Below are positions 4,941 through 60,980 of a DNA stretch of 64,000 nucleotides, piece after piece; positions within the stretch are counted from its first letter, which is position 1; every line of letters starts with the position of its first letter. The notes under the pieces are model-generated. The model had not been told where the DNA came from and did no database searches. It was given only the letters and a program-made list of their open reading frames with translations. Location: positions 434,001 through 498,000 of the forward strand of contig RSEE01000038.1 in NCBI GenBank assembly GCA_003971905.1, read 5' to 3'. Source of the stretch: Moniliella sp. 'wahieum'. Lineage: Eukaryota > Basidiomycota > Moniliellomycetes > Moniliellales > Moniliellaceae. The translations under genes were made by a program, and so were the position numbers.

Positions 4941-4968
4941 GGTTACCTGTTACATGTTACCGGTTATC
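4941..4968. repeat. Heptamer array, four units
   Basis: Units GGTTACC, TGTTACA, TGTTACC, GGTTATC. On the minus strand these read TAA-CCGG, TAA-CATG, TAA-CAGG: a T-A-A anchor followed by mostly self-complementary tetramers. Confidence 0.7.
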
Positions 4969-5433
4969 GCTTCTCGGCTACTTTTGTGGCATTGGCCCAA
5001 CTGATGCACTCCTACTGTGGGATGGATAAGGCCTGAGGGTCGATGAGAGATGAGAGTACCCCTGGGTATATAACTCAACAGCAGTGTGAAGGACAGGTCG
5101 GATATCTTCTGCCCGAGTATCGACTTTAGTGGGCCGGCACCGCTGGTGACCGGGTGACCTCCGAGAGCATTATGCTGGAAGAGGTTGCAACTTGAAGTTT
5201 GGGTACTAGAGTCATAAGTTTGACGGTGGTCCGTGGAAGTTCTCAGGATCTCTCAGGCCTGACCTCAGGCCTCAGGGCCACCGCTGCTGACCAACACGGT
5301 CAGGGAGATGTCCTCTGTGGTCCTGAGATGGGCTGGGCATCTGAGGTTTGTCAATGATGCATGATGGGTCCATGATCGAGGATCGAGCGTCGGGAGTTGC
5401 TGGCTGTCGGCGGGTGTCCCAGTGTAACATGCA

Positions 5434-5483
5434 AACGTTAAACGTTAAACATGCTAGGGGCCCTTAGGCCTTAGGCCTTATGG
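5434..5483. repeat. Two adjacent heptamer arrays
   Basis: AACGTTA, AACGTTA, AACATG near 5434-5450, followed by TTAGGCC, TTAGGCC, TTATGG near 5464-5483. Both have a 7-bp period and palindromic cores (ACGT, GGCC). Confidence 0.7.
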
Positions 5484-5979
5484 TAGGAACCCGACTAGGC
5501 AAGTGTGCAACTAGCCGGCGGAATCAGTCACTCATGCGCGCTTCGGGAAGGCGGAATGTGCCACGTGCAAGTTCCGATGCGCACATCCCCATTCCATCCA
5601 TCCCATTTTGCGGGGACGACGCATTGCAAGCCCATGCATGCACGGCGCGCGACGTCGCACGGGGGCAGCCACCGCTCCAGCACTAGGGTTCGGGGGGACA
5701 CAGGGCCGATCCAAGCCGATCCAGACGGCAGAAACGATCGGTTCACCAGCCCCAGCAGGGCGCCAGTGTGCCGTGGGGATGGGCCGGGCCCATGCTTCAG
5801 GCACCCCACCAGTGTCGCCTGTGCCACCCCGCCCTGTCCACTGGCTCACCGCGGGCCAACGCTGTGCCCGGCCATCTCCAGCACCACCACCGCCTTCCCA
5901 GCCTTTCCCTCGCCTGCCTCCACCGTCGCTGGCCCGCGCACGCACCGCATCCGAGTCGACGCCTTCACCTCCATCCGCC

Positions 5980-6722: not shown

Positions 6723-7474
6723 TTCGTGCGCCGAGGTTCCAGTCCCGCCCTTCCCCCCCATCCATCATGATCCTGCTCTCAGTTTTCCTCGTATCGGGAT
6801 TTTTGCCGCTATCGCCACCAGTGCCGTTCTTTTCCCCTTTCCCTTTCCCTTTTCGTGTAGCTTTGTATTCTTGTTTTTTTATCCCCCCCCCCCCACACAA
6901 GCCATCCTCTTGCGTTATCGATTATCGCTGGCCAATTCCTGTAAGGGCCGTTTGGTACCAACCAGACTATAAAGCTGATGCGTCGATACACCTGGAGTAC
7001 CTCTCATGTCAAGCGGCGCAGCAATGTTCATATCGTCCCAGCGAAGGGTTAAGATCAAGGTAGTGACAGTGGCGGTGTCAGCGTGAACGTGAACATGAAC
7101 GTGACGGCGGCCTAGTCGAAACCCCGAAACCCACTCACTACACTACTCACCACCGGCAAAAGCGCTCTGAGCTGAGGCGATCGGTACGCGAGTGCAAAAT
7201 GGAACTTTGAGACGAGCTATGAGGAACATGGTGCACCAACGTAAAATAAATTGAAGATAGCCCAAGTCATCGGGAGGCCCAAACCGGAAGAGGGTAGTCT
7301 GTCGAGGATGATCGATGAAGGCTACCAGAGGGAGGTTTGGTAATAATGGAAACAGTAACAAAAAAAGGAAGGGACCGGGGACCAACAACTGTCTATATCC
7401 GGGCGCAGAGAAGAGCAGAGAAACGTAAAGGTAGCATGCCAGCACGCGGTACGGTACGGCCCATAACGTAGAAC
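6723..7474. other. 3' regions between convergent genes
   Basis: Contains long C and T runs (6775-6900) and A-rich stretches; no gene supported. Confidence 0.55.
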
Positions 7475-9044: not shown

Positions 9045-10088
9045 GGCAGCAGGAGAGGAGGCGTGGCCAGAGCAAAAGGTGAAAGAGGGTGGGGCGGTCG
9101 GAGGAGATGGACGGTCGGGGGATGGGCAACGAAGGATCAAGTCGAGGAGGAGCGTCACGCTGTAACACTGGATTGGATGTTCACGCAGCACGGGGAGGGG
9201 GGGCCTTGCCTTGTCCAGCAAGGAGCCAGGGCGCGTGGGGGCAGGGCAGGGAGCAGGGGGCAGGGGGCGAGGAGGACGACGAGCAAGGCGAGGCAGCAGA
9301 CGGAGGAGGAGGGGAGCAGACGGGGCGAAGAGCGTGCCTGAGACGATGCGGATGCCTGATGAGCGCCTGAGCAGGCTCGCTGAATGTGGGCGGGGCGGCG
9401 GCGACGCAGAGGGGCAAGTGGTCGGAGAAAACGCTCAGGCGTGGTGCGGCGGCGGCGGCGGCGGTGGCTGCCCCCTGCCGCCCTGGCGCCCCAGACCGCA
9501 CAGGGGATGGGTGGCGCCCGGGTGGCTCCCCCCCACCGCGCCTGTGTCGTTACATCATGCATCATCCAGGGTCCATCATGTGCATCATGGGTGGTAGACA
9601 CAGGCCAGATGCCTGGCGGTGGCCGCGGGGAGCGCTCAGCGCGCTGAGAGCGGGACAGCAGGCGTGCACACCGCGGGCGGTCACCGGCACCACTCACCGG
9701 TCACCGGCCAAGCGCGCACTGGCGCAGACAGAGTGCTCGGCATATCGGCCGCGCCTGGGAGCCTGCCGCTTGCCGCAGACGCCTGCCCATCCCGTCTCTC
9801 AGCACAGCACCCACCGCGTCCCCTCGCCCGGCCCCTGACCCCCTCCCCCCGTCGGCTGCCCGCTGCCCACTACGCTTCAGCCTCACGCCGCCATCGGAGT
9901 CTGCCTTGTGCCCAGGCCGAATCGCGGGTCTTGGACGTGGTTTGCGTCGTCTCGTCTTTCATCGTCAAGGCGACAAGACAATGATTCATCCCTTTTATAT
10001 ACTTCCGCCTTGGGCTGCCTTTCCCCCACCATGCCGCACACACGGCACCGCCATGATGCATCTAGCCCTGCCGCGAGCCATAGGGCTA
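9045..10088. other. Upstream region of the Opy2-like gene and downstream of Bre2
   Basis: GC-rich with GGC/GCG triplet runs (9380-9470) and heptamer motifs at 9555-9564 (TGA-TGCA-TGA, minus strand) and 9694-9703 (TGA-CCGG-TGA, minus strand). No coding region supported. Confidence 0.55.
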
Positions 10089-14229: not shown

Positions 14230-15899
14230 TGGTGGGGAGGAGGGATGGAGGGGGTTGGTGGAGAAGAAGGTAGCAGCCTACACCTTGGTGCTGCGAAGAT
14301 CGTTGACAGCGACGTGGACACGGCGACAAAGCATCTTTTCCGGCTGAAGCGGGAATAGCCGTATCGGTTGCGAAGCAGAACCCTGCTGGGGCGGAGGCGG
14401 CCGAGGGACAGAGGGGGGGCAGCGGTGTGGTGCTTGATTAATTTGAACTTGCATCAGCTGGTTTCTGCCCTCCTGCCTGGCGGCTGGTGCGGGCATGGGG
14501 CCACGCCTCGACGCGTGATGGCCTAACCCTACTCAGGGTACTCTGGCCGCTCGGGCCTTGGTCTGAGGGACTGGGAGATCAATTGGGCCAGTCAGGCCTC
14601 AGGGCGGGGATCCTTCGATGCTACGATGGACGTGTCGTCCGGTGGTCTTTTTTCTTTCCTGTGTGACATGTGATGTCTAATGCGACTTCTCTCTGATAGC
14701 TCTTGTTTTACAGCCAAAGAGATAGAAATCCTCCGTGCCCCACTTGTCCCATGTTTCTTACGCCGTGCATATTAAGGCCTCAAGCTACTATACACTCCAT
14801 CTCACCATTAGTATACACTGCAGTGGAATCACCATGCAGCGTTGATAATCATGATCAACTAGTACTAACCGTCTCCCGTTCTATATGTCAGTAGGCATAA
14901 AAACACTGAGGTTCCCAACCTTTGTCACAAGTGTCGAACAGAGATTACACGCGATGAGTAAGCGAGAAAGGGATCGGGGGGGGGGGGTCTTGATAATGTC
15001 GGCTTCTTTGTGGAAGGAATCCTCTTCAATGAAGAACAGAGTGTGAACCTTCTTGCGAGGACAATCGATCATATTTCACGAAGCACAACACAACCTGTGT
15101 CGGGACTGACACGGTAGTGCAGTATGCCGAAAGCATCCTAGCCAGACTCTAGCACTCCCAGCCACTTCCACCCCGGTCGCTAGTACCTGCGTGCCCAGCT
15201 TGGGCGCAAGTCTGGAAGCTGACACCCCCCTTTCTATAATAAGACTCGGCTCGGAGAGCGCAGTCTATCCTCTCTTCTCACCACCTTCCATTCCCTCCCC
15301 CCCTCTTTTCAGCTACTCTGTAGTTTCACTCGCCCAATCAATCAATGCCAATTGGCCATCTGACCTGTTTTATACTCTTATCCTCCGTGTCTCCTGGGAT
15401 CGCGATCTGTGGTCGTAACAAATGCCTGCAACAGATACAAGTCCTTCGAGACCAAAGTGTTGTTTTGATTGAAACATAAAGGTGTGAAGGATATACTATA
15501 GATAGGCTGTATATAGTGGAAGCTGTTGGCCTAGGGAGCCGGATGGACAGAAGGATGTGAGGAGAAGGTGATGGATTGGAGCTAGCTTTGGGTCTGGGTC
15601 CAGAGGCATATCTATGTAGGAGGCCAGACTAGGAGCCAGTGAAGCACACAGAAGAGAATGCAGGGCACGAGGAACAGTACCACACGCCAGGACCATACCC
15701 GTAGTGTGGGGAAGCCGACCGAACCGAGGCGAGCTTGGTCTACCGACTGTTGGGAGCCGAAGGATCACAGTCAACAGAGGGTTTGTCTTCATGAGGCGTT
15801 CTCTTCGTCATTGGAAACAGGTTGGGATGACCGATATTAGATGAGCGATCGGGATTTGCGTAAAAATACGGTCAAGTACTAGTATATATACCAGAAATC

Positions 15900-15962: not shown

Positions 15963-16600
15963 CCCTCCGTCTCTCTGCCAATGACAAATGGCAAAAGGGG
16001 TACTCTATTAGGTACCAAATTTGTCGATTTTTGACCGTGGGAAATAGCAGGTTATTTTGAAGAGGAAGGCTGAAAGCATCTCAGATCTCACTCATCGTTC
16101 AAGTGTACTATTCATTACGCTCATTCGCACACATCCTCTCGCTACATCCGCATGCATCCTCTCGCTACATCTGATGCGATTCTTCAGACCACAATGGAGA
16201 CGGCCACAAAACACATAGTTTTTGACTTCTTGTTAGCAACCCCATTCGCCGACTCCTGTAATACCTTTGGTGAAGGTGTCATGGGAGCTGCCAGAGAAGC
16301 AAACGCCTATAGTATTGAGCGGGCTCAGGGAGCATAGCGTTTTCCCCCTGATCCCGCCTAAGGCATATAAAGGAGCAATGGGATCTCTTCAGATCTTAAT
16401 CTCAGCTCTCTACAGATAGAATATCAATGAGCTGATGGCTGTCTGTGATGTGTAATCACAGAAGTGCTGTAGTATTAATAGGCGCGTGAAATATGAGGCT
16501 AGGATATGACACAGCTGCGCGCTGTTTGTTGGTGCAGGTGCGGGCCGAAGGCCCACGGCACAATGTGTGGCGAAGAGGATCACACACTCATCCTCTCCCG

Positions 16601-16627
16601 TAACGCGTAACGCGTAATGCGTAATAG
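16601..16627. repeat. Heptamer array (TAACGCG type)
   Basis: TAACGCG, TAACGCG, TAATGCG, TAATAG in 7-bp register. Confidence 0.75.
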
Positions 16628-22100: not shown

Positions 22101-25100
22101 ACAGGACTTGGGCCAGTCGAATTGAGAGATTTCCGTTTATCCCCACCTGCAGTGTGCTCTCCTCTGCGCCATCGGCCACGTCCGCCTTGTTGGAAGCGGA
22201 AGCGACATCTACCATGAGCGCGTTGCCTCGCGCCTTCTTGGTCTTACGCGTCGTTTTCTTCTTCTTTCCTCCCCCGACCGACCGGCGGCAAGAGCGCGGT
22301 AGTCCCAACCCGGCAGTTTCTTGGTTGCATAGTAAAACCGAACGCAGTCCTCGGGGGTCTTGTATGGCAACGCAGCAGCGATCTTGCCAAACTGCTTGGG
22401 ATACAGACTGAAGCGACGCTTGAACGTGCTCTCCTCTTCCTCGGTCCACAGCGGGGGCGCAAAGTCATCCAGGTAAACGCCACGGGATCATGCACTTGGT
22501 GGTTGGAGTCGTCATACGTCTCCATCAACACCTTTGTGTCCGAGTCGGGGTTAAGAACTTGGTCGGGCAACTTGGCTGTAGTCCGGGCCGCCCGCATCGT
22601 CGGGTCCTGCATATCGGCGCTTTCCAACGACGCAAGAATCTCGAGAAACTCCGCTTCGGATCGGACCGCATCGGCGGCAAAGCCCCCCGGTCCCATCCCC
22701 TGGGAAGCATGGTGATTGTTCCTCCGATTCGCCCTGCCAGGAATGGGAGTGACCGACACAGAGCCCACAGGCTCTGGCTCGTTGTGGGCAGATGTGGCCT
22801 CGGCGGCTGCTTCGGCACGTTCCTTACGCTCGTTCCACTCGTCCAGCATGCGGCAATGGATCAGCCACTTGCGATTCAAGTCGCGGTACTCTTCCTTGAG
22901 CTTCCTCACCTTGTCGAGCAGTCGCTGCTGTGTCGCAGCCTCACGCTCCATGATGGCCAATTCGGTCGCTTTCAGCTCGGCCGATTTCATGTCCAACCAC
23001 AGTGGACCCGCTTCAAAGTAGACTTGATCAGGAAAGGCTCGTGGGGCAATCAGGGTGCCATGCATCGACTCTGCCACCTTCCGATTGACACGGTAAATCT
23101 CAGACTCCTCTCTCCGTTCCTCTACTGGATCCGAGAGCCGATGCATAATGTTGCGCTCCAGCAGGGTCCGTTTTCGTTCCACCTCCGACTCTGAGGGAGA
23201 AACGTCACCCTCGTCAGGGTGATCCGCTTCGGCCTCGCCCATCTCCACATCGTTGGTCGAACTTTTTCTCTCTTGGACGGGGAGGTCAGCGGGTTCACTT
23301 TCCGGTGCGTGCTCGACGACAGGACGGTCAACCTCCATCGCCTCCGGCTCGGCCAGTTCAGGCTGAACAGACGCATCAGTACTCAGGGCATGAGAGGGAG
23401 TAGTTGGCTCCTCTTTGCGTGGCGCCTGAGGTGCAACGGGCCTGGCCCTAGTTCGGAATTGGGAGGGGGAACTTCCAAAGGGATGGTGGCATCCGCATCC
23501 AACGGCACAGGAGCCGGAGCCGAGAGCGCAGTCGAGGGAGGTGGCTCTTTGAATTCTGTGATGGGCGGGACTTCCTTGGGTGATATCGACCCATCCACAT
23601 GTGCTCCCAGACCATTGATGCCGCCGTTCTCCGTCGGGGGTTCCTCGACCGGTTCGTTTGATCCAGTAATGGAGCTACGCGGGACAGACTCGGCTGAGGG
23701 GTTGGTCACCAAAGGCGGGGGGAACACACCTGAAGGGAGTGTAGGCGACTGAGCCGCCAGGTTGGCCAACGTGACGAGGGGAGATATACTGTCCGGTGCA
23801 GCATCCCCTGCGTCCAGTTTGGGTGAGGAAGACGAACGAGTAGCGGCCAAAGAAACTGCTCCCACAGGCGCAGGTTCAGCAGGATGAGCAAGACCTTCTA
23901 GGACGGGCGTAGCCTGATCCGAGCGGACGGTTTCTGGAACAAGAGCTGGCGCAGCCGATGGCTCAGGCTCAAGCGACGAAGTAGACATTGCGGGAGCAGG
24001 TGCGACCGGAACAGAATGTGATGGCACCAAAGCAGGCGACGCAACCGAAGATGGAACGATGGCCGAGGCTGGAGGCACATCAGGGAAAGGAGGCGTGTGT
24101 GTCCTTGTCTCCAGGATGTCAGCCTCTTGTGCCCCTTCCCTTGGGGGAAGAGATGGTTCCTGGACGACCTCGGTGGAGGCTGCAGCCTCGACTTTTTCCA
24201 TGCCTGCGTTTTCCTTAGGTTGGGGCGCATCTGATGAGAAGTGAATGGTCAGTTTCCTTGCCACAGTATGGAGAGGAGAAGGCACGTACCCATGGATTCG
24301 GTATTGGTCTCGATGGCGGTCTGGGCGGAAGGCTCAGAGATGTGCTCCGACAAATGGGGATTCGTAGGGAGGGAGAGCTCCGTATGACGAGGAGCTGAAT
24401 CCTGGGGAAGGCCCTCGGCGTCAAGAGAGGGAGCAAGATTGGTGGTTTTGCATGCAGTCTCAATCTCGACTGAAGACACAGGCTCGGCGGGTGGGACGAG
24501 CGTGGCTTCGGTGGTGGACGCTGTAGAACCAGCAACCTCCCGCGGTACCCGTTTCCATCCACAAAAGGAGGGGCGGGCGCTGTAGGTGCAAGAGGTGTGG
24601 CCACAATTGGGGGAGACGATTCCCTCGTTTCCAGAGGGGGGGCGTCAATAGAAGGACCCGCAGATTCAGGATTGGACGGAGGCACATGCGCAGCCTGGGA
24701 AGATAGATCAGGCGCAGGGACAGCTGAAGGCGCAGGCCGAGGCGTGCTTGCTGGACGAGCCTCGGCAGGCTCGGGAGGTGCATCGACCATATCTACATTG
24801 GGCGCAGCCTCCATTGGAACAACTGACGAGGTCTGTCCTGGTTCGAGCAAAGGCTCAGGCTGCTCCACAGCGGGCTCGACCTTGATTGCCACGTCAGCTA
24901 CCGGGACAGTTGGGGTAGGACCGGGTTCCTCCACGCCACCAGACAGGGCGTCCCCAGTGTCTTCCTGCTTGATGTGCACCGGTGCAGCTCGCCGGGGAGA
25001 AGAGGCGATAGAGTCCCGCTCGCCTCGCAGGGAAGAGTCCTCTTCTGCCTGCCCCTCCTCGACTGATGATTGCGACGACCACGAGCGGCGCGGGCAGTGT

Positions 25101-25625: not shown

Positions 25626-27087
25626 TGGTGGGCAGCAGGAAAAGGAAAAGAGACGCGGCGGCGGCGAAGCTGCTGGGCTGGGCGGCCGCCTGCTGCCTGG
25701 ACGGCGGATTAGGTCAGCAGAAGCACGGGGCGCAGGCCCAGTCACCGTCTCGTCACGCGCCCGTCACATCTCCGGCGCCCTCACGCGTGCCCCGTCACAT
25801 GTCACACCATCGGCAGCCAGCCGCAGCCGCCCGCCCCCAGCGCCAGTGTCCCGCGCCGCTCTGCGCACCACCCGCCCTCGGCCTCACTCAGTACTCACCC
25901 CAGCCAGCGCGCCTCAGGCCACCTTCGGGCCATCCTCAGGCCTCATCGACCATCCGCCTCGTGCGTCGCCCCCCCGCCCGCCCGCGCATCCGCTTGTCTT
26001 GTAGCCTGCCCCAGCAAAGCGCCCCATCCAGGCGTTCTTGCCTTCCGCGTCTTCCGTCGCCAGGCCACGTGGTTCGAACGGCGGCCCGGCAGGTGGGGAG
26101 GGGAAGCCAGTCCCAGCTTGGTCCCGTGGTGAGCGGGGCAGTGGGTATCGGCCATAATGCATAACAGGTAACAGGTAGGTCAACGATGGCAATGTCCGGG
26201 TTCGCCGCAATGGATAGCGGAGGATAGCGAGGGCAGAGGTACATGGCGCGGGACGGGACAGATGGCCACCGTATGCGCACGTTGCCACAGCATCCCGTGT
26301 GCATTGGCTTGCCGGCACGGCGCAGACGGGGGAGATCTTGTGCGTTCAGAGATAAGAGGAACGCAAGTCTCATCTCGTGGTGGTAGGTGGGTGGGTAGGT
26401 GAATTGCTGACCAGGACAAAACGAACCGCAACAAAAGCTCGCTCCACCTCCACATCTGGTCCGTCCATTTGTCGTCACCGAAAGGCGCCCGTCTCAACGA
26501 CAGCGGGGGTTCTGTTGCGTACCGGGAGAGCCAGTGTTGTTTCCCATTCTCAATGTAAAAACGCAACCTGTGCTGGAAAGTGAAGGAGGCGGGAAAAAGG
26601 ATCGTACTCCGCCTTGTGTTGATGAGACACCCTTTTCGCCCACATGATGTGACCACAGGCGACTATCCGCACATATGGGGATGCCCGGGTGTTGTTTTAT
26701 CCCTGGTGCGCTCATCGAGTTCATCCACCTAACCAATCTTTTCTTCGCCGTTTGCGCGCGCTTAAGGGTCGGCTCTGATCGAATGGGGAAAGGGTTGCGG
26801 GCCACCCACGTCCCCCATGGGATCAGCATTGGATCACACTTGCTTGGAAGGCTGATTTGGGGGAGGGTGTTCCTCTGCCGTTGTGGTGGATTAGTTTCCT
26901 TGCTGCTCACATCAAGCGGTTGGAATTACGATGTGGCACCTTGTGAGGGGGGAGACGTACATTTGGGTTGGTTGGAGAAAGAAGAGGGAAGGTGCCAGGA
27001 GGGTTCCTAGCCTCGGCTGACCGGCCCCCCCCCCCCCCCTCCCCCCCGAGGAATAAAGCATGCCCTTTTTGTGGGGAGGAGCTCGTG
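25626..27087. other. Snt1 upstream region
   Basis: Contains heptamer motifs at 25795-25804 and 25936-25945 (both read TGA-pal-TGA on the minus strand) and TAACAGG x2 at 26162-26175. A C15-T-C7 run lies at 27025-27047. No convincing gene. Confidence 0.55.
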
Positions 27088-27379
27088 TTACGAACCCCCG
27101 TTGCGCTCGGACGACTTGGTGGAGAAGCTGGGCCGAGAAGCGCACGGCATCGACTGTTTCTGGCGATCGTGGGGGAGAAGAAGTGACTAGTGACGAGGGG
27201 CTGGATTGATTGATTAGATTGAGGGAGCTGAACATTTCACCGCTTACCACAAAGTTGTTTTCGTAGCCGCCAACGCGCGGGTGGTCGTCAGCCGTGGGCG
27301 CTCCCCCGGCCGTCTTATTTGGCAACGGCTCGGCAGAGGCTGCAGCCGATCGATCACCGCGATCACCTGCTCGCGACAT
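27088..27379 (-). CDS. Possible small spliced protein of unknown function
   Basis: Exon 1 (27379-27248) encodes a polar start MSRAGDRGDRSAAASAEPLP followed by HPRVGGYENNF and meets a GTAAGC donor. Using the acceptor at 27154, exon 2 (27153-27088) encodes SMPCASRPSFSTKSSERNGG and a stop, for ~65 aa. No family recognised. The exon-1 sequence looks protein-like and the donor is good, but the acceptor choice is a guess. Confidence 0.3.
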
Positions 27380-30111: not shown

Positions 30112-31299
30112 TTAGCGCTTAGCCTCGCAGACGGCTGCACTGACCAGCGCAAAGCCCAGACCTGCAATCACTTGCAAATCATCACGCCGAGAGGAGGTAG
30201 AGGCGCCTCAATCCAAGCGCCCGGAACGGATGTGGTCATGGCCAGCGACGGATCCACTTGGTTCACCTGAGTGTCGCCTTGCAGCAGATTTTCCTCGCCC
30301 GCCGTCTTGGGTGACGCAACCACTTGATCGATCTGATGGCTAGATGGCTCGATAGATTTGACAAGTAGATCCGAGTCGGACGCGCGCCGTGTGCCCTCCT
30401 CCGCGGCGGAAGGGAAGTGGCTTCCTTGGCGGGAAGCAAGTCGGGACTCGAAGTACCCGAAATGGCACTGAGCACGCTCGTTTCTGTGCTCGAGAAGGTT
30501 CGTCCAACGAGGGCTGGGTATCAAATGTGTCGACGCTAGACGCGGGCGTAGAGCCATGGAGGGGCGCCGCGGGAGGCAGAACCGGGAAGAGCCATCGGAG
30601 TGGGCTCTTGTTTTGTGTCGGCGCAAAGGTTAGGTTCAGGACGAGCGGGAGGCGGTGATAGGATGACGAGAGGGACGGGAGTGGCGGGAGAGGTGGGACG
30701 GGTGGGACATTCTCTCGTTCTTTGGGCATGTGGAAGTTGCTCCAGCTGCGAACACGGGAAGAACGGTTTGTCGGGCGAAGGACGCGGACGATCGACCAAG
30801 GAGCCGACTGGGGCGGACCATCGCTCTCACCAATGTACGGGGTGCTTACCCTCCTGGGCGCCGGCGGTTGTGCCTGCTCAAAAGCCTGGACGTAGAGCGG
30901 ACATGACAGAGGACTTTGACTGCCTGGAGGAGTGGTCGCTTGGGCAGATACGTGCCGCGATGGCGCACGGCTGTAGCCGGCCAAACGCGGGTCTTGCGCC
31001 GTGAATGCGCCACTGGGGCGGCGGTCCAAATGGAAAGGCGGCATGTCGCTGGTGGGAGAGGAAGTGGAGGACTGGGACTTGGCTCGACCACGTCCATTGA
31101 GGGTGGGGCCAAGGGCCGAGGTGGGGAGTTGCATGCGGGTGGAGGTGAGGATGCTGTTGCTGTGGGCCAGGTAGCTGAAGCCTTGGGGCACAGGGACGCC
31201 ACCTGGGGTGAGAGCACGCTCCGAGGAAGGGAAACGCGGGGTGGATGCACTGGCTGGGAGCAGGGGGGGCGAGCCCATGCCGAAGCTCTGGTCCGCCAT
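30112..31299 (-). CDS. Pro/Ser-rich protein of unknown function with hydrophobic C-terminus
   Basis: I do not recognise the family. Starts MADQSFGMGSPPLLPASAS at 31299 and is largely disordered (SSTSSPTSDMPPFHLDRRPS, ENVPPVPPLPPLPSLSSSYH). The C-terminal quarter changes frame twice (near 30470 and 30410), giving EGTRRASDSDLLVKSIEPS, then NQVDPSLAMTTSVPGAWIEAPLP. A last switch near 30190 gives DDLQVIAGLGFALVSAAVCEAKR and a stop at 30112. A short hydrophobic C-terminal segment could be a tail anchor. The TTA stop overlaps a TTA-GCGC heptamer pair at 30112-30124. No intron seen. Confidence 0.6.
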
Positions 31300-32165
31300 G
31301 GCCACGCAGGTGGGTGGTGGGGTGCTGCGTCTCAGCCCTGAGTACCGGGTGGCGAGTGCTGAGGGGGGACGAGCCTTGAGGAGGGGAGATGGAGGGGAAG
31401 GCAAGGCTCGGCGGGGGGGGCAGCACTGGGCCAGCACTGGGCCAGCCCGACTCTGACGCGTGACGACTCAATGCGGCAATATCAAAAGACGCAGAATGCA
31501 GTAGGATGGGCGCTGGGTGGGCAAGGTGTCGTGCTGTGCCGGGGTGCTCTAGGGTGCGCTGTGCTCTCGCCTCTCCGGCGGCCAGGTGGAGGGGGCCGCA
31601 CAGAGGCAGTGGCCACTGGCAGGCAAGGCGCCAGAGCAGTGTGGTGTTGGGGGCGGCGGCTGAGTCGGGATTGTGACGCATGGGACGAGCCACAGTGGCC
31701 AGCGCAGATTGCATGCACGCCCTTGCATGCCCTGGCGGGCCCTTGCATATCAGCGCTTCTGAAATGGGCCTGCTCTGAGATCTGACTAGTGACTGTTGGC
31801 ACATGCGCTGATCGATCTGATCACCCGCTGATCACCTGCTGATGCATGCTTGTGTCACCCGCATTTGGGCCAGAAAGACAGCCCACAGCATATCATCCAG
31901 TCTGAGATCTGACGCGGCTGGACCCAAGTCCATCCAGACAATGGACATTCCCCTCCCGGAAATGTTGATGACGTTGATGGAGAAGAATGATTAATGACTG
32001 CCTCATTCAGGGCCGTGCCCAGGACCGACGAGCGTGCCGGGATTGGAGACGCTTTCGATAACAGGCAAGACCCGTATCGCGCTCGTACATTGTGGACAAT
32101 ACGGTGAGGCACGACCAGTATGGGTATGAGTACACTGAGTACCGAATGCCAATTCTTCTTTGCCT
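31300..32165. other. Intergenic region with several heptamer arrays
   Basis: TGA-CGCG-TGA at 31454-31463; TGA-GATC-TGA-CTAG-TGA at 31776-31792; the 19-mer GCTGATCGATCTGATCACC at 31807-31825; TGA-GATC-TGA-CGCG at 31913-31926. No gene. Confidence 0.65.
31776..31792. repeat. Heptamer pair TGAGATC-TGACTAG-TGA
   Basis: Two different self-complementary tetramers (GATC, CTAG) follow successive TGA anchors in exact 7-bp register. Confidence 0.85.
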
Positions 32166-34923: not shown

Positions 34924-34949
34924 TGATTAATGATTAATGATCGATGATC
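34924..34949. repeat. Heptamer array TGATTAA x2, TGATCGA, TGATC
   Basis: TGA anchor every 7 bp with TTAA, TTAA and TCGA, all self-complementary. Confidence 0.85.
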
Positions 34950-35523: not shown

Positions 35524-35608
35524 TCACCGGTCACTAGTCACTAGTCACTAGTCACCTGCATGCGCCTGCATCATGCATCATGCATCACGCGTCATGCGTC
35601 ACGCGTCC
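35524..35608. repeat. Compound heptamer array, the best example in the window
   Basis: Read on the minus strand: TGACGCA, TGACGCG, TGATGCA, TGATGCA, TGATGCA, a 12-bp spacer, then TGACTAG three times, TGACCGG, TGACGC. Four different self-complementary tetramers sit behind the same TGA anchor in strict 7-bp register. Confidence 0.9.
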
Positions 35609-38153: not shown

Positions 38154-39757
38154 TCCGACCGCACTGCCCCCCGCACTGCCCCTTCCTCTCCTCTCCTTTC
38201 CTCTCCTCCCCCCTTTCTTCCTCCCCTTCTCTCATCCTGGCCTGATGCCGACATCCCTCATGGACCTCATTTCGTAGCCAGGGGTCGCTCGCCTACACCC
38301 TACGTCACTGGACACTGTGGACTTTTTCATTGTTTCGCTTTTTGGCTCCCTGTTCCCCTCTTCGCATTCCTATCTACGTTCGTTCGCGCTTGGCTCGACG
38401 CTATCCATTCGAACCCCTTGTTTGTTGACTTTGGTCACCTTTGGTCCATATAGATTCGTTCCCGCGAAGTATTGGGGGCAAGCTTACGCCCTGTCCATCT
38501 TGCGAGGATGCGGGTGGGATGTTGGTAGGTGGCATTGATGGTGGATCCGAGCAGAGCTAATAGGGACAAAAGAAGAGGCATCTGGGCGTCTTCTATGTAC
38601 TAAAAAAAGCAGAGGTGGCGGTTTTGGGTAGCAAGATTGCCAGGTATAGTAGGCACCCGTCGGGCAATAGTAACTAGTAACATGGCTCCAGTCGTTCGGA
38701 CTCGGGGACGGGAAAAGAGACAGCGGGGAAGTGCTGCTCTGATTGAGATTGTGGAGCGGGGGGTGGGACTGAGGCTGGGACTAGGGGCTCCAGAGACTGG
38801 GTGGTCGAAGGGAAGGTCGGGACTGAGCGAGACGACAAGTGAAAGAAAGAAAACGGGAGCTGAGAAGACACGTACATCAACCTCACTGAGCCGGGATTCC
38901 CACATGTATTCCGCGGTAATTCTGTGCCCCCTCCGTGGTATTCCGTAGACATAGATTCCGTGGCATACCGTGTTCATACCGTGGTCATACCGTGCTCATA
39001 CCGTGCCTATACCGTAAAATGCCGCAGAATACCACGGAATCCTAGGTCAGTGAGCGTGAGCGGGACCACGGTACTAAGAACATACGGGCAAAATGACTCA
39101 TCTGAGTCCCAAAATAGGATCTCAGCCTGGTGGGAGAACCACAAAAGGCAACGGACCCAGGGGCTGGTGAGCTTGATAGTAGTTGTTCTCCACTCCTGGT
39201 TAAGCTTCAACTAACAGCTTCCGCGTATACCCTCTGCCGCGCCATTTTCCTCACCACACAGTTGGATGTACTGAGCCCCACATGACTGCGTAGATAATGT
39301 ACATCGGGCAATAGGGCAGAGACGTGCCTTGCATATGATATAAGAGGCCGCAGGGGCTATGAGATGGGCCAAGTGAGCGTCGGAACGGGGCAGAGCAGGC
39401 TAGCCATCGACACAAGAGGATATAAAGACGTTGCCCGGCGTTTCCTCGCCGGATCGTTTATGCACAGGCGCGGGGCACCGACGACTGTCCCCCCCGGCGT
39501 GGGAACAGTGTTCCCGGGTGGGACGTTGGGGCGGCCACTGCGCCACACTGGTACTGCCACTGCACCGGCTCTCATCGGTCATGACGCGTGAGTGCTGGGT
39601 TATGGAGCGGCCCCAGACCCGATCCATGCACCACACCACCGTATTTTAACCTGGGCCCACGCGGTCCGCCCCCACCCCACGACCCCTGGTCCACCACCAC
39701 CACCACCACCACCACCGCTATTGCTACTGCGACTGCTATCGCCACAGCACGCTAGCC
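38154..39757. other. Intergenic region carrying a foldback element
   Basis: 3' region of the preceding gene, then the inverted-repeat element at 38882-39054, then the DUF2828 promoter with TGA-CGCG-TGA at 39582-39591 and a CCA/CCG triplet run at 39690-39715. Confidence 0.6.
38882..39054. repeat. 173-bp imperfect foldback / MITE-like element with internal TACCGTG repeats
   Basis: The left end 38882-38900 (CTCACTGAGCCGGGATTCC) and the reverse complement of the right end 39036-39054 (CTCACTGACCTAGGATTCC) match at 16 of 19 positions. The similarity continues inward for ~20 bp (GTATTCCGCGG against GTATTCTGCGG). A nested pair TAGATTCCGTGGCAT (38952-38966) and ATACCACGGAATCCTA (39029-39044) encloses about five copies of ATACCGTG-N4. 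No target-site duplication or ORF seen. Confidence 0.7.
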
Positions 39758-46122: not shown

Positions 46123-46160
46123 TCAGGCCTCACAGGCCTCAGGTGAGGTCTCAGGCCTCA
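46123..46160. repeat. GGCC-core heptamer cluster
   Basis: TCAGGCCTCA occurs at 46123-46132 and 46151-46160 with a third AGGCCTCAGG between them. On the minus strand these read TGA-GGCC-TGA. Confidence 0.8.
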
Positions 46161-46273: not shown

Positions 46274-46365
46274 TTCGAATCCATATCATTGACAGAGCTT
46301 AAGGCTGGGACAGAGGGAACGCTACGTCTAAACCGAACCGTTCATCTTGCGGGGGTACGTAAGTT
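46274..46365 (+). repeat. Dispersed ~80-bp repeat, copy 2
   Basis: Same invariant blocks as copy 1. It is followed by GTACGTAAGT, and a CTAAT and CTCTAG lie before copy 3, so the interval 46356-46427 has the form of an intron. Confidence 0.85.
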
Positions 46366-47194: not shown

Positions 47195-47710
47195 GCTGCG
47201 CGTGGTGCGGCACAGCGTACGGAGCTGTGGAGACCAACCTGGACCTGCTGGTCAGAGAGCTTGAGGCACGGGCCTCTCTTTTATGAAGTGTAGATTCTCC
47301 ACAGAGAGAGCCGTAATGTGCGGGGACGCCTTTCCTCTCGTGGCTCTGCCATGCGCGGTCTGTCCTAACATATCTCTGCCTCCTCCGTCCCCAAGTTCCT
47401 CCTCAAGCAAGGTGTGCTGCACTGGTGTGGTCCGCCTCCACCTCTGAAGGTGGATCAAACGCACCTGATCCTATACCACATGTGGTATACAGTTGCACAC
47501 GCTCGAGTTTCCTCATCTTTCTCTCCGCTCTTCCTGCTGAGTTTTCCTGGGCCCTTTCTTCCTCCACGAGCGGGTTGTGGAGAGGCTGCGGGGAACATGT
47601 GAGCGTCCTGGATTGAATGTGCTGTGCAGAGTACCTCTTCGGACTGCTGCCACATTTTTCCGGGCTGACGCCATCGGCTTTTCCTAATAGGATATAGCGT
47701 CTGGGATTAT

Positions 47711-47748
47711 CGATTACGTTCGATTAACGATTAACGATAATCGATTCC
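47711..47748. repeat. Heptamer array CGATTAC / CGATTAA x2 / CGATAAT / CGATTCC
   Basis: A 3-bp insertion separates the first unit; the remaining four are in exact 7-bp register. Confidence 0.75.
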
Positions 47749-47780
47749 TTTTCCTCAAGGCACCAGGCGTAGTAGCCGTG

Positions 47781-47845: not shown

Positions 47846-48322
47846 TTAGTGCCATCATGCATGCATCATGCATCCTTCATCACCATCACCTGTGGCCTCG
47901 GGGCAATCGCTAAAACAGGATGTGAAGCCGTGGGACGTGTGAGGCCTGAGGGCAGGTGTGACATTGTGTGGACCTGGACAGTGTGACTTGTACTACTGGG
48001 AGACTGCCGCACTGCGGCTTAGTATGTTCATCCCTCGCCGTGCTCGGCCAAAGACTCTGGTGCGTCCAGCTTCCTGGGGAGTCGGGCGGCTATACTTCGG
48101 CCTTGTCGCCATGTCCACACCGAGCAAGGCTACCAGAGCACTGGGCAGGCAGCAGGCGTGACTGGTGACCCGGCGAGGACCGCACTGGGACCGATGATCG
48201 ATTCGATGAGGACGCTGGCCAGCCGCGTGGCTGTCAAATCGATCAGAGATGCATATTGCATGGCGCACTTAAAAGAAACGCCCAAAGCCTGCTGGAGCAG
48301 GCCAGGTGGCTGGGGCGCCGCG

Positions 48323-48341
48323 TGACGCGTGACGCGTGACG
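48323..48341. repeat. TGACGCG heptamer array
   Basis: TGACGCG, TGACGCG, TGACGG, about 360 bp upstream of the MFS start codon. Confidence 0.85.
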
Positions 48342-54500: not shown

Positions 54501-55171
54501 TCTGGGCGTGGCGAAAAGTGGGGTGGCAACGGGTTAGTACGACCACGCCATTCTCGTTACGCGTTATCTCGGTCCCCAACAACGTACCTTGGGTGTCGAG
54601 GTTGGTCCAATGGGCTGATGGTGGTGGCGCATGGGCGAAGCAAGCAATTGGTGCGGAGGGGAGGGGGAGCGAGTGGGCACCGTGGCGGGGTAGGAGGCGG
54701 AGGTGGGCGGCGGGGGGAGACCGGTGCGGAAGCGAGGTGGGGGCGGGGTGGGCGAGGGAGGGAAGGGAGCGGAGGTGGCACGGAGACCGGGGTGTGGCCG
54801 CTGTCTTCCCCGTCGAGTTCGCGATGGGGGAGACGCGGTGGTCTCTGTGGGTTAGGGGAGGGCGGCATGGGGACTGGGATTGGAACGAGGGGTGGAGGGA
54901 GCGGCGGAGGCGGAGGCGGAGGTGGGGCGGAGCGGGGGGCGGGGGTGGTGGCGGCGGGTGCGGATGGGGCCGATGTTGCCGGGGCGGGCGGGCGGCGGGC
55001 GGCGGGCAAAGCCGCCGATGGGGACGGCGGGGGGCGTGGCAGGCGTGGGCGGAAGCACGGTGGGGGGGCGAGGCTGAGGGAGAGGGGCGGGAGACGCGGC
55101 GGAGGGGCGTGTGTGTTTGGGCGGCGGCGGCTGGGCAGCGGGCAGCTGGGCGCGGGAGGCGCCTGGCCCAT
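51590..55171 (-). CDS. Large Pro/Ser-rich protein of unknown function, frame-disrupted
   Basis: No family recognised. Suggested start MGQAPPAPSCPLPSRRRPN at 55171, then ~190 residues dominated by proline. Exon 1 appears to end near 54590 at a GTACGT donor with TACTAAC inside the intron. Exon 2 begins ASSPPSLGVEAQEPILASHP. Later readable blocks are SYSPRGSFRGGSRGQSAP, DLAAGPYDRARTHAAYEMYV, MPSLLNPTVPPGDQDGHGHG, VLQREQPREQYQLAIPHVAV, ASQSLAIALGLADQASPTFG, MSERSEVPLAEGAMQASLVA, LRALQMSNDDLSHVGAFERL and HGISVTIDVGTFSTTELEEV. The basic and acidic tail (YRRSKRQKQRATASKATKSH, RRERAQEQEEESPSLP) ends EEPIV at 51590. At least six frame changes. The KRQKQR-type clusters suggest a nuclear protein. It could be two adjacent genes. 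Confidence 0.5.
54476..54590 (-). other. Probable intron in the Pro-rich gene
   Basis: Donor GTACGT after the HQPIGPTSTPK codons, branch site TACTAAC near 54541, acceptor CAG before GCCTCCTCACC. Phase 0 joins STPK to ASSPPSLG. Confidence 0.65.
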
Positions 55172-55447: not shown

Positions 55448-55730
55448 TTTCGACCCACACAAACCGCTCGGCGGCCCGAGCGTCGATCTGGCAGCTGGGC
55501 GCGAGACTGGCCGTGTGCGGTGTGCTTCGCGTCGTGCGTGCGGCCGCCCGCGCCCCGTGCAGCGCGGGATTACCGGGTCCCGATTCCCACTGCCTGGCCG
55601 CTGCGGCAGCTCCCGTCGAGCAGACGCGCTAAGCTTTGCTGCCCACGGGTATAAGCTTTGGCCTGCCAACGGCAGCAGGCAGGGCGCCAGTGTGGCTCTT
55701 GTGCCGCCGTTTTGATGTACGGGGGGGCGG

Positions 55731-55758
55731 TAACCGGTAAACTGTAAGCGCTAAGCTG
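55731..55758. repeat. Heptamer array of four TAA units
   Basis: TAA-CCGG, TAA-ACTG, TAA-GCGC, TAA-GCTG in strict 7-bp register. Confidence 0.85.
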
Positions 55759-56025: not shown

Positions 56026-56046
56026 TCACATGTCATGCATCATGCA
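56026..56046. repeat. Heptamer array with CATG and TGCA cores
   Basis: TCACATG, TCATGCA, TCATGCA; on the minus strand TGA-TGCA-TGA-CATG-TGA. Confidence 0.85.
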
Positions 56047-56173: not shown

Positions 56174-56194
56174 TCAACGTTCAACGTTCAACGT
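56174..56194. repeat. Heptamer array TCAACGT x3
   Basis: Three consecutive units; minus strand TGA-ACGT repeated. Confidence 0.88.
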
Positions 56195-57057
56195 ACCCCA
56201 CGTCAACGTCCCCAACTCAGTACTCCGAACTCAGACGTGCCTGTGCCCAGTGCCCCCATTTCGCCCCCGTTTTCACCAGTGACCAAACATTGAAACGTGC
56301 CATTCCATCTGCCTGCCCCCCTCCACCCCAGCTATTGCTATTGCCCCGCCGTGTCAGGCACGGCACTGGGCCCACGCAGCGTCCCCGCCACGCCCCGGCG
56401 GATCGCACGCAGCAAGTCCTAGTAACCCCTCTCTGTCTGGCCCATCGTGCCCCCGCCCACCTAGCCCGCGTGGTCCCAGCGGTCCCTGCGTTCCGTCGCA
56501 TCGGCTGCCACGGGTAGAATATATAGCGCGCCGGCCCCTGCAAGGCCGGGGCTCGAGCATCGATTCCATGGCCACGGTCCACCCTCTATATTGCCTCTCC
56601 GTGGGCGCTGACGAGAATTCTGGGTCCAAGCTTCAAGCTTTACGAAGCAGATCGACCACCAGCCTAATAAACAGCCCAGGGAGGCAGATGCATGGTGGAA
56701 AGGAGCGAGCGTACTAGCACCGCACCGTACCGTACCACTGACCCAGCAGCTACGTACGATGGGCTTGGAGGTGCGAGCAAGGGGTAACGCTATGTATTGC
56801 TACTGCTGTTGCCGGGTGGCAAGGACGCTCGGGTCGGCTGGGACCAAGCCTGCGTCCGACAGGGCGGCGCACTGGAGGCGGGGGTGCGTGTCGCCCAGGA
56901 AAACGGCCGCCAGACAGACGCAGCATCTCTCTCGCCGCCAGGGTGCGCAGCCACGTGGGGCACGATGATGGGCGCGAGCGAGCTGAGCGCGACACGCGGC
57001 ACGCGTCACGCGAACCAAGACCGAACCGCCGAGGCAGAGGTAGTGCGACCCACCCAT

Positions 57058-57964: not shown

Positions 57965-58005
57965 TGAAGCTTGAACGTTGACGTTGAAACGTTCAACGTT
58001 GATTG
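57965..58005. repeat. Mixed heptamer array TGAAGCT / TGAACGT
   Basis: TGA-AGCT-TGA-ACGT-TGA in register, followed by degenerate and inverted AACGTT units. Two different self-complementary cores behind one anchor. Confidence 0.85.
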
Positions 58006-58020
58006 AGGAGCGCTGAGGCT

Positions 58021-58071
58021 GACATGTGGCATGCGACATGGGCCACTGAAGACTGACGTGACATGTGACAG
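58021..58071. repeat. TGACATG heptamer cluster
   Basis: TGACATG, TGGCATG, CGACATG at 58020-58040 and TGACATG, TGACAGG at 58059-58072. Confidence 0.8.
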
Positions 58072-58792
58072 GGGCCGATGGGATCTGGGATTGCATCACA
58101 TTAGAGCGTGCGAGGGGAGCGTTCCACCCCATCCCACATCTACCTCCCAGATCTCACCCACCAGCCCCGGCGCACATGCACATGCACATCCTCAGTCGTC
58201 TCCCGGGCGTGGCGAGGGCGTGGGCGCAGGAAGCGAGGCGCGGGGCTGGCAGGCGCGGGGGGCAGAGCAACCTCCTGCACCTCCTGGCCCCTAAACTCTT
58301 TATCTCCTCGTCCGCCCGCCCGCCCCGGCGGCGAGACAGTACCAGCCTGGACCGGCGCCGAGGGTGGCGACACAGGCGCCGGTGGCCTTGCTGCGGTTCC
58401 ATCGGGCCCAGGACTGCGCTCTGCGTGTGACCGGTCGCGCTCCCCCCCCTCTTGCAGCGGGGAGCTTGGTGCGGGACGGGTCGCGTGACGTACCACCTCG
58501 CACGGCGGCAGATCTCGCTCCGGGCTGCGCGGTAAACTGCGCGAACGGGACAAGGGACGGAGCAAGGCGGAAACGGGTGGGACGGGGGCGAATGTTCCCC
58601 CCTTCGTGGGCCGGTACCGGTGTCGGTGCCGGTGGCTAGCACATCGTGTGCCCCTGGGAGGCCCTTGGCCTCGTCCGGCGGCGCGATCCAATCCCCGCAA
58701 AGGGGGAGGGGAAGATAAGGGCGAGGAGCGTGCGTTGGCGTGCGGAACGGGATCAGCAGGCGGGCGAGCGGGTGCTGGTTCTTCGTCGGACC

Positions 58793-60620
58793 TCAGTTCG
58801 TGCGCCAAGGGGTGAATCGGGGGCAGGGGCGGGTCGCGGTCCTAGCGCGCGCAGCGGGCGAAAGGGAGCGCAGCTTATCTTGATCTTTATCTTTATCTTT
58901 GTCCATCTGATCTGTGCAGTTCCCGGGGGGGTAGATGACCTGGCCCGGTAAGTTGCGATCATACGGATCTCGCGCCGTCCAGTCCCACGTGTAGACCAGC
59001 GTACCTCGCTGCGGGGAGGTGAACTCGGCGCCCGGATGGCTTGCCTGCCACGTGCTGCGTAACTCGTTGATGGCTGGCGCGAGCGATCCGTAGGCCAATC
59101 CTAACAGATGCCGCGGCGCAGGTTTGCCATGGAACACGCGCTCGGTGCCCTTGTCGTCCAACAGCGGCGCTGGATCGCTCAGCCGCGACACGCGCCGTCG
59201 CACATCGTGTCTGCCACGGCCATGGCTGCGCTGGCCACTTGCGCGGGCCAGCGGTATCCCAGCGCGGGCTGCAGCGCGCCCGACGGCGGGAAAAGGGCGA
59301 CACTCTGCCCGTGCGGGTGGGTGCGGGACAAAAGCGGCGCCAGGTTCGCAGGTGGGTCCCCGGGTTGCATGCGCACCGCCGGGGGCGCAGTAACCAAGAT
59401 CGAGGGAGCCGGTACGAAGGGCGCGCCGGCCGGAACAGCCACGCCAGCATACAGCGTGTCGGCGGGCGAAAACTGGCCCACATCCGCTACCGTCGCTGCA
59501 ATCCGCCGTCGCTTGGCCCGTGCTAACCGCATGGCAGGATCGGGCAGAGCCGAATCGGTATCGTCCATCTTGTAGTTGGCCGTGGCGGAAGAGGAAGGCT
59601 CGGCCTGCAAGGCGTGCAAGTTGGCGGCATAGGCGTAGAGAGCCGTATCGTCCTCCGGCACCGGCGTCCGTTTGCGCACGTGAGAAGAGTCGAATCGTGG
59701 CAGGTCATGAACGGCATTGGTACCATGCTCCTGAGCAAACCGCGAAGAGGAGAAGGGTACGTAGGAACCCCACCCGTTTTCCTCGAATGACAGCTGCTTG
59801 GGTCCATCTGGGGGTACTTCTTCCCCCATCGGGGAGGGGGAGGTCATCCTCGACAGCGCCAGGGACGTGGGGGATGCGCCCGTCTCATTTCCTATCTCCT
59901 TGGATTCAGGAAGAGGAGGAAGATGACAAGGGATGAACTCATGGGTGGGGAGATACTGAGCTTGAGCTTCTTGCTCGGGAGGAAAGGAAGTGCAGCTGCT
60001 CGTGTCTGATAGGGACGACAACAAGTCGCCTCCCGTGTCGCTGCAAGAAGAGTCGAGATCCATCGCTTCGTCCGCAACAGACCCGTTTGCCTCCGTCCCA
60101 CACACAGCCGCCCCAGCGGCGAGAGCATCGCGACGGTCGACAGGATCAATGGGGAGGTACTCGAGCACGGGCCGGGCCGGGGAGGGCAGTACCTCTTCGG
60201 GCCGCACGAGGGCGGCGGCGGCACGAAGTCGCCAGTTGGTCAGTGCGGACGCGTCGGTGGATGTGCCAGCGGCGGCACCTGGGGTGGATGTGGGCGGCAG
60301 CCACTCCAGCAGCTCCTCCAGGTCGACCCCAACTTGCTCCAGGGATGCACACACGTCCCCTCCGTCGGTACGGTGCGGTTGGAGAGCTCGGCATTGCCCT
60401 GGGCACGCTGCCCAAGGAGAGATATGTACCTCTGCAGCACTTCGCCCAGCATCCCAACGGCGCGACTGGAGGAGCGGCGGAAGCCGGCCGAGTGGAGAGC
60501 GAGCACGATGGCCGAGTCGACGAGGGCGCCTGCGGCCAGCGCTTGGCGGCTACGCCCTGCCCCGCCCGAGGGCGCAGCGCTGCGCCGATCTGGCACGTCA
60601 GGGCCAGGCGAACGCGCCAT
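58793..60620 (-). CDS. Histone-fold (BTP-type) protein, TAF8/TAF3-like
   Basis: Probable general transcription factor TFIID subunit in the nucleus. Starts MARSPGPDVPDRRSAAPSGG at 60620. A bromodomain-associated histone fold follows (about residues 25-95): ALVDSAIVLALHSAGFRRSS, AVGMLGEVLQRYISLLGQRA, then after a frame repair near 60350 VCASLEQVGVDLEELLEWLP. A Ser/Asp-rich linker (DLDSSCSDTGGDLLSSLSDT) leads to YLPTHEFIPCHLPPLPE, which resembles the short TAF8 C-terminal motif. The rest (SSSRFAQEHGTNAVHDLPRF, AMRLARAKRRRIAATVADVG, LLGLAYGSLAPAINELRSTW, LVYTWDWTARDPYDRNLPG) is not recognised. The stop at 58793 is provisional. It shares a 360-bp divergent promoter with Pab2. Alternative: TAF3 or Spt7-type fold. 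Confidence 0.62.
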
Positions 60621-60980
60621 GGGGGTGGGGGAGAAGGTGGCGGCCGAGCTGCCGGGCACGTGGGGGGCGACGATGGCGACGATGGGATGGAATGGGATGG
60701 TGGATGGCGTACGGGCGTTCAAGCGCCCGCAGCGCAAAACGCAAACCCCGCGACTTGGGCCAGCTGCTCCGTCGCGCTGCCTCGGCTCGGGCGAGACGCA
60801 GCCCAGCAATTCCGCCTGCCATTCCGCCCGGCGTCACGCGTCGTCTCACCGTCACCGGGTCACATGTCATGCATGTCACGCCGCCTGGCCAAACATCCAT
60901 CGCCCATCGACCCTCGACGCTCCCTCTCCAACCACCTGGGGAGGAAACTTTGGTTCCGGCCCACCACAGTCCCAGCCGCC
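60621..60980. promoter_or_regulatory. Divergent promoter between TAF8-like gene and PAB2
   Basis: 360 bp between two start codons. At 60831-60880 it carries TCACGCGTC, two GTCACCG, and TCACATGTCATGCATGTCA, the heptamer motif in its TGA-CATG form. Confidence 0.65.

Follow-up and report, generated by a model that had tools for sequence, protein, structure and literature searches.

The stretch considered here, hereafter the window, comprises 64,000 bp of the Moniliella sp. 'wahieum' genome (positions 434001 to 498000 of contig C38; the genome spans 69.5 Mb in 223 contigs). Besides ten large open reading frames, for which no Pfam match was obtained at an E-value of 0.01, it harbors short units in which two copies of a triplet TNA (N, any base), 7 bp apart, enclose four self-complementary bases (N4). 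The window contains 59 such units within 44 arrays. The best reading takes them as the outcome of site-specific templated insertion, and not as binding sites or plain slippage.

Self-complementary N4 between TNA anchors

For the window, every triplet-N4-triplet form was counted on both strands. N4 is self-complementary in 44 of the 67 sites anchored by TGA/TCA and in 15/25 anchored by TAA/TTA. The comparison of palindromic with non-palindromic N4, proposed as a check in the original prediction that had been made from the letters of the window, thus yields 59/92 for TNA versus 96/1714 for all other triplet anchors (Fisher p ~1e-44). About 35 TGA-palindrome-TGA cases had been predicted by eye, fewer than the 44 counted, with one or two expected by chance; dinucleotide-Markov shuffles, used as null model, gave a mean of 1.8 units (maximum 6 in 100 runs). 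The predicted coordinates were exact in 26 of 27 cases (31913 should read 31903). Unequal anchors (e.g. TGA-N4-TCA) are palindromic in 8/47 cases in the window, which argues that the second TNA generally reproduces the first faithfully, in direct and not in inverted orientation.

A 264-kb set was composed of the window and 20 stretches of 10 kb, taken at round coordinates from contigs C1-C9. At a gap of 4, N4 is palindromic in 229/419 TNA-anchored sites versus 387/7171 for other anchors (shuffles, mean 8.4), and at least one unit occurs in 19 of the 20 further stretches. Genome-wide, TNACGCGTNACGCGTNA is found 773 times and its letter-reversed version, the type of control used for all genome-wide patterns, 0 times. 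Restriction to this one contig, which would have spoken against the prediction, is therefore ruled out. Extrapolation from 229 units minus ~8 expected in 264 kb gives a total of about 58,000 units genome-wide. At a gap of 11, 41/243 TNA-anchored spacers are self-complementary, 39 of these 41 overlapping 7-bp units. The only non-TNA anchor clearly raised in this set is ATG/CAT (49/358), a triplet contained in TGCA arrays.

Any base is accepted equally as N in the target triplet T-N-A. The rates per TNA site are 19/3349 for A, 48/9047 for C, 47/9042 for G, and 19/3350 for T, i.e. 5.67, 5.31, 5.20, and 5.67 units per 1000 sites; they were obtained from a 333-kb set (333,528 bases, omitting the duplicates L004, L029, L037, and part of L030) that contains array-selected loci and homologous copies and is not fully independent. 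Here and below, labels of the form L0xx denote stretches of the same genome. The fixed triplet of the original prediction was hence correct, but its anchor T-R-A has to be widened to TNA, with any N used at equal rates on either strand and no strand preferred. No conserved C..G surrounds the TNA, and 13 of the 16 possible palindromes are used within the window.

N4 copies a neighbouring dinucleotide

Each unit corresponds to a gain of 7 bp: a site abTNAcd becomes abTNA-b'a'-abTNAcd, where b'a' is the reverse complement of ab, or, in the mirror form, abTNAcd-d'c'-TNAcd. For scoring, the two bases following the second TNA were compared with the first half of the palindrome, and the two bases preceding the first TNA with its second half; identity on either side counted as a match. 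This one-sided rule is obeyed by 123 of 144 single units in the 264-kb set: 51 match on the downstream side alone, 46 on the upstream side alone and 26 on both sides, and the other 21 match on neither. A palindrome that changes while anchor and period stay fixed, as had been noted, is borne out; N4 is, however, not free.

When anchor lengths of 1-6 and copied lengths of 1-5 were searched freely, TNA stood out at anchor 3 and copy 2, where TGA (121), TCA (108), TAA (23), and TTA (22) account for 274 of 443 structures over all 64 triplets. In 274/365 TNAcd-xx-TNAcd repeats, xx and cd are exact reverse complements, versus 169/3189 for other 5-mers. The genome-wide flank test, which inspects one base on each side of the unit, gives the same picture: TGACTAGTGA occurs 2862 times, 104 of them lacking both G before and C after, and its letter-reversed control 77 times, 27 without either expected adjacent base; TAACCGGTAA occurs 1359 times, 52 without either expected base, and its control 146 times (42 without). 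The copied side of neighbouring units is the same in 45 and different in 44 cases, with a skew at single loci (23 upstream versus 9 downstream in the window, 2 versus 9 in L016). Taken together, the sequence rule is well supported.

Empty sites in homologous copies

A homologous copy of parts of the window lies on another contig, C9 (L030, L038, and L039), with 3.7% substitutions over 23,480 aligned positions; dispersed repeats provide additional pairs. In the empty-site test, one unit was removed in silico and a better fit was then sought among homologous sequences; of 597 comparisons, 516 were filled, 53 empty, and 28 tied. An empty site was regarded as clean when it lay outside homogeneous arrays, matched at least 22/27 junction bases and retained an intact TNA; array rows and weak junctions were set aside. 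Seven clean empty/filled pairs were obtained: L011:3887, L020:6214, L038:9061, L030:3555, L030:4342, L035:887, and window 57965, the last being the first unit of a two-unit mixed array. In all seven, the empty copy holds a single TNA, N4 is copied from one flank (7/7), and a direct duplication of abTNA or TNAcd lies beside the inverted copy. The unit at L038:9061 belongs to a repeat family of which the window copy and four further members lack it (25-26/27 junction bases; 16/27 at one more place), so the filled state is derived there, i.e. an insertion. The rule also holds at three empty sites of lower certainty (L005:2774, L020:6487, and L028:2822). In the alignments read, no occupied site with an element between the TNA copies was seen; 4 bp only separate them.

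The suspicion that more than ordinary slippage was at work is thus confirmed by clean empty sites that hold a single TNA and one matching flank. Of the two options originally offered, a shared process or a binding constraint, the process stands and binding is not needed, as N4 is set by the flank and the 7 bp are inserted into single-TNA sites.

Most of window 33591-59813 is present as a second copy on C9, and the genome seems to be duplicated or haplotype-split; window 38464-41179 (~2.7 kb) is matched by only ~0.2 kb there. At a gap at window 51527, C9 carries a 29-bp insertion resembling a near-perfect hairpin, the length of which is unrelated to the 7-bp units. A dispersed short repeat of ~40-87 bp, found in at least five places in the 264 kb (window 46273-46356, 42551-42637, and 46434-46512; L016:4656-4725; L020:8531-8570), serves presence/absence tests.

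Arrays

Among 15 mixed arrays, 13 have a first palindrome copied from the upstream flank and 9 a last one copied from the downstream flank, the chance per end being set at 1/16. Since each array end copies its own outer flank, the palindrome changes within an array. If events copy the flank of the TNA used, an array keeps its own palindrome at mid-array, and a new palindrome can start at either outer edge. The array at window 31776 (tc-TGA-GATC-TGA-CTAG-TGA-ct) is a textbook case; that at 35524, where neither outer flank matches, is a counter-example. Homogeneous arrays, e.g. (TGA-AGCT)7, exist too.

Genomic placement and features of the window

Detection of coding DNA by third-position substitutions yielded only 6 segments, 962 bp in all, and a reading-frame GC plot, which flags both ribosomal protein L3 genes tried, was used instead. 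Units occupy 1 of 1178 TNA sites in strongly frame-periodic DNA versus 202/6058 in weakly periodic DNA (143/3945 in the least periodic class). The earlier statement that none lies in a recognisable gene is supported to this extent, i.e. by a reading-frame proxy and not by annotation. As a 7-bp insertion shifts the frame, selection suffices to explain the coding depletion. Units cluster beyond chance, with a median spacing of 288 bp and a mean of 997 bp. The features of the window are compiled in Table 1.

Ribosomal protein L3 matches were found in at least seven places (C95, C27, C9, C109, C5, C97, and C18). The match on C109 has internal stops, three matches lie in pieces, and four fetched loci are 92-94% identical over the gene in gene-length alignments. 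The best PDB matches of this protein (uL3) are fungal. A photosynthetic origin was rejected, as the light-harvesting family PF00504 gave no match, and a rhodopsin-cyclase fusion, a marker of Blastocladiomycota, was not seen: of 8 rhodopsin-domain and 7 cyclase-domain matches, none come within 100 kb of one another. A 94-bp repeat is shared by L010:9285-9378 and L017:4518-4611; ARAGORN calls a tRNA-Arg (TCT anticodon) at L010 9294-9378 and none in the L017 copy.

Table 1. TNA-anchored units, arrays, and empty sites by window position
Position	Strand	Feature
4903..4912	.	TCA-CGCG-TCA single, flanks unmatched (aged or a chance occurrence)
4950..4966	.	TTA-CATG-TTA-CCGG-TTA mixed array, upstream-templated
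5265..5274	.	TCA-GGCC-TCA, both flanks match
5355..5364	.	TGA-TGCA-TGA, downstream-templated
5439..5448	.	TAA-ACGT-TAA, both flanks match
5464..5480	.	TTA-GGCC x2 array
6915..6924	.	TTA-TCGA-TTA, downstream-templated
7309..7318	.	TGA-TCGA-TGA, upstream-templated
9555..9564	.	TCA-TGCA-TCA, upstream-templated
9694..9703	.	TCA-CCGG-TCA, downstream-templated
14592..14601	.	TCA-GGCC-TCA, downstream-templated
14664..14673	.	TGA-CATG-TGA, upstream-templated
16081..16090	.	TCA-GATC-TCA, upstream-templated
16601..16617	.	TAA-CGCG x2 array
23376..23385	.	TCA-GTAC-TCA, no flank match
25795..25804	.	TCA-CATG-TCA, downstream-templated
25888..25897	.	TCA-GTAC-TCA, upstream-templated
25936..25945	.	TCA-GGCC-TCA, upstream-templated
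26155..26164	.	TAA-TGCA-TAA, upstream-templated
27184..27193	.	TGA-CTAG-TGA, upstream-templated
30112..30121	.	TTA-GCGC-TTA, both flanks match
31454..31463	.	TGA-CGCG-TGA, downstream-templated
31776..31792	.	TGA-GATC-TGA-CTAG-TGA mixed array; first palindrome from upstream TC, second from downstream CT
31903..31912	.	TGA-GATC-TGA, upstream-templated
31988..31997	.	TGA-TTAA-TGA, upstream-templated
33787..33796	.	TCA-CCGG-TCA, both flanks match
34924..34947	.	TGA-TTAA-TGA-TTAA-TGA-TCGA-TGA mixed array
35524..35554	.	TCA-CCGG-TCA-(CTAG-TCA)x3 mixed array; C9 copy shorter; outer flanks unmatched
35571..35594	.	TCA-(TGCA-TCA)x2-CGCG-TCA mixed array
38671..38680	.	TAA-CTAG-TAA, upstream-templated
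39582..39591	.	TGA-CGCG-TGA, no flank match
46123..46132	.	TCA-GGCC-TCA, upstream-templated
46151..46160	.	TCA-GGCC-TCA, no flank match
46299..46301	.	Empty site, single TTA; GCGC unit in homologous L038:9061 (reverse strand); other repeat-family places also empty
47707..47716	.	TTA-TCGA-TTA, upstream-templated
47940..47949	.	TGA-GGCC-TGA, downstream-templated
48323..48339	.	TGA-CGCG x2 array
54557..54566	.	TTA-CGCG-TTA, upstream-templated, common to C9 copy
55570..55572	.	Empty site, single TTA; C9 has TTA-TCGA-TTA, copying upstream GA
55731..55740	.	TAA-CCGG-TAA, upstream-templated
55745..55754	.	TAA-GCGC-TAA, downstream-templated
56026..56042	.	TCA-CATG-TCA-TGCA-TCA mixed array; first from upstream TG, second from downstream TG
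56174..56190	.	TCA-ACGT x2 array
56354..56356	.	Empty site, single TCA; C9 has TCA-GGCC-TCA, copying downstream GG
57965..57981	.	TGA-AGCT-TGA-ACGT-TGA mixed array; C9 copy without first unit
58059..58068	.	TGA-CATG-TGA, downstream-templated, common to C9 copy
60860..60869	.	TCA-CATG-TCA, no flank match

Origin of the units

Target, product, and template are read directly from the DNA, and from them we infer how the insertion arises. The product can be read as [abTNAb'a'] followed by abTNAcd, which is what a 3' end at TNA would make by folding back, copying two bases and returning. In such a process, nicking, breakage or pausing on one or the other strand would expose a DNA 3' end directly after the A of TNA. 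Its terminal five bases (abTNA) would leave the template and fold back, with A against T and N as the turn, whereupon two bases (b'a') would be copied from the strand itself. The end would then return to the real template and copy abTNA again, and the following round of replication would fix the extra 7-base mini-hairpin abTNAb'a' as an insertion; where such an event hits coding DNA, the resulting +1 frameshift would be selected against. That the units are scars of such a sequence-specific, fold-back templated insertion process acting genome-wide is a proposal to which we give an even chance. The inverted copy of the adjacent sequence, present in 123/144 singles and recovered by the genome-wide flank test, agrees with it, as does the direct duplication beside the inverted copy in the seven clean pairs. 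The TNA requirement together with the two-base copy suggests a protein that sets site and length, most simply a TNA-specific nuclease.

Several observations weigh against this proposal. Fold-back errors of the ordinary kind vary in length and lack a fixed motif. Here, no variable lengths set by local inverted repeats were found: TNA is enriched at copy length 2, and not at lengths 1 or 3. Fold-back alone also leaves the triplet specificity unexplained, as ANT, GNC, and CNG anchors stay 1-7% palindromic, and a primer whose one-base loop is closed by a T-A pair would be strained. A TNA-specific enzyme was not found, the transposase families PF13359 and PF01609 being those searched for in six frames of the genome. 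Neither flank is matched by the 21 of 144 singles mentioned above, where ~8 palindromic units are expected by chance, so that some decay or another origin is needed; in the 333-kb set, 36/205 singles match neither flank, and the less certain empty site L002:991 violates the rule. The alignment of the homologous copies contains 12 gaps of exactly 7 bp, of which just 3 represent clean single units and 2 array changes, the remainder being 2 near-misses (33806 and 58150) and 5 unrelated gaps. Nor is the length absolutely fixed: in the 264 kb, TNA shows small excesses of self-complementary spacers over other anchors at gaps 6 (10/218 versus 119/7529), 8 (3/135 versus 24/5462), and 9 (6/193 versus 21/7679), which could be rarer products of the same process. 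Finally, 50 kb of Escherichia coli, taken as an outside control, shows a weak excess in a small sample (TNA 7/49 palindromic versus 40/719 for others). The spacers at gaps 6, 8, and 9 mostly do not overlap 7-bp units.

The main rival is the repair of hairpin-ended breaks, which we consider unlikely, though far less so than the other alternatives. A transposase-like, TNA-specific enzyme would make a staggered break that yields the 5-bp duplication TNAcd, and a flank end sealed as a hairpin would be reopened two bases from its tip, leaving two P nucleotides (d'c') before rejoining; such elements may since have disappeared, or the enzyme may have been domesticated. Targeting of TNA has precedent, NuwaII of the PHIS superfamily using C|TNA|G with a probable 3-bp TNA duplication (PMC4482050). 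P nucleotides in V(D)J joins are described as primarily two bases, with single ones very rare (PMC3528771), and two is the main copy length here. The even balance of copied sides among neighbouring units is also as expected from a symmetric cutter. On the other hand, six-frame genome searches gave no match to PF13359 (PHIS/Harbinger) or PF01609, where other families were not searched and degenerate or intron-split copies could be missed, and the alignments read contain no occupied site. Excision footprints normally vary, which counts against this model, and the P nucleotides would always have to derive from one end only. Moreover, mPing-type elements are stated to excise generally precisely (PMC4561436). 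A putative TNA-specific factor is needed under both the hairpin-break and the fold-back model.

The other explanations fare much worse. Ordinary slippage of pre-existing 7-bp odd palindromes, itself very improbable, would account for homogeneous arrays such as (TGA-AGCT)7, probably partly grown in this way, and for the odd palindromes that make up 88/163 exact 7-bp tandem duplications; yet clean empty sites hold TNA and one matching flank and no palindromic 7-mer, and palindromic units make up 10/264, 0/31, and 0/28 at periods 6, 8, and 9. As the origin of the first insertions slippage is refuted by the empty sites, and it is still likely for part of the later array growth. Slightly less probable still is selection for a protein that binds TNA-palindrome arrays in regulatory DNA. 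The position of the units outside coding-like DNA and their clustering would fit, but within the window every N and 13/16 palindromes occur, the flank predicts N4, exactly one 7-bp unit is present or absent between otherwise matching copies, and depletion from coding DNA is expected for any frameshifting insertion. We give least credence to classical excision footprints, in which many TNA-duplicating transposon families would each have left two bases of both inverted ends (XY and its complement). This formally yields TNA-XYxy-TNA, and Stowaway/Mariner elements are reported to leave a small duplication with short end sequences (PMC4561436). The flank rule already disfavours it, however, since XY equals the flanking target dinucleotide in 123/144 singles, which fixed transposon ends would not; the 13/16 palindromes within the window alone and the missing PHIS transposase match speak against it too.

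Going beyond fold-back insertion as such, a dedicated TNA-specific nuclease or recombinase, possibly a domesticated or minimal mobile system, might continually write 7-bp hairpin-templated insertions, with no element left, ~58,000 units and activity since the two copies of the region, now ~96% identical in aligned bases, parted; we rate this wider reading somewhat short of even. If true, DNA would here be written by a programmed or parasitic activity without any element remaining, and an enzyme responsible for the units would amount to a novel means of writing short DNA. A mutational process that combines a three-base target with a 7-bp product and templated content is unusual, the indel processes known to us being looser in site and length. 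The original prediction knew of no element with such a rule, and a search of open-licence PubMed Central (PMC) papers likewise gave no description of a TNA 7-bp rule among the matches listed. The process has reshaped the non-coding DNA of a whole genome, and its traces lend themselves to counting and dating. Whether small templated insertions are driven by a sequence-specific nuclease or by polymerase fold-back becomes directly testable with it, and the text signature TNA-cd-d'c'-TNA-cd can be searched in other eukaryote genomes and mutation catalogues.

Comparison with known systems

PHIS transposons (e.g. NuwaII) resemble the units in that TNA, with any N, is the target and is probably duplicated on insertion (PMC4482050); here too, TNA is duplicated and N irrelevant. 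Unlike in PHIS, no element with terminal inverted repeats lies between the duplications in the alignments read, where 4 bp only separate the TNA copies, no conserved C..G is present, and the six-frame genome search gave 0 matches to the DDE_Tnp_4 transposase (PF13359). V(D)J P nucleotides are likewise short inverted copies of the adjacent end, and the form of the units appears compatible with two-base P nucleotides of hairpin ends; V(D)J joins differ in being programmed recombination with random additions (PMC3528771), in place of which a fixed 5-bp duplication is seen here.

In rad27-deleted yeast, a stalled nascent strand is proposed to fold back, copy itself and return to the template, leaving an insertion with an inverted copy, as in the process suggested here; in these 21 events from a repair mutant, lengths are set by inverted repeats and stalling (PMC5677150). 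The units differ in their 7 bp, two copied bases, TNA, and high density in a genome not known as mutant. Small inverted triplications (DUP/IN/DUP) show the same direct-inverted-direct order but have median lengths of 148/160/148 bp, a 30-bp spacer, and 6-bp junctions, and are tied to FEN1/Rad27 loss; the word 'motif' was not found in the searched text of that source (PMC13334657). In the passages considered, neither of the two systems has a triplet target or a fixed length (PMC5677150, PMC13334657). Membership among the small inverted triplications was rejected, as the inverted part is 2 bp here and ~20 bp or more is required. What is shared is the order: a unit can be written as DUP abTNA / IN b'a' / DUP abTNA, with T..A forming the complementary junction and N the spacer.

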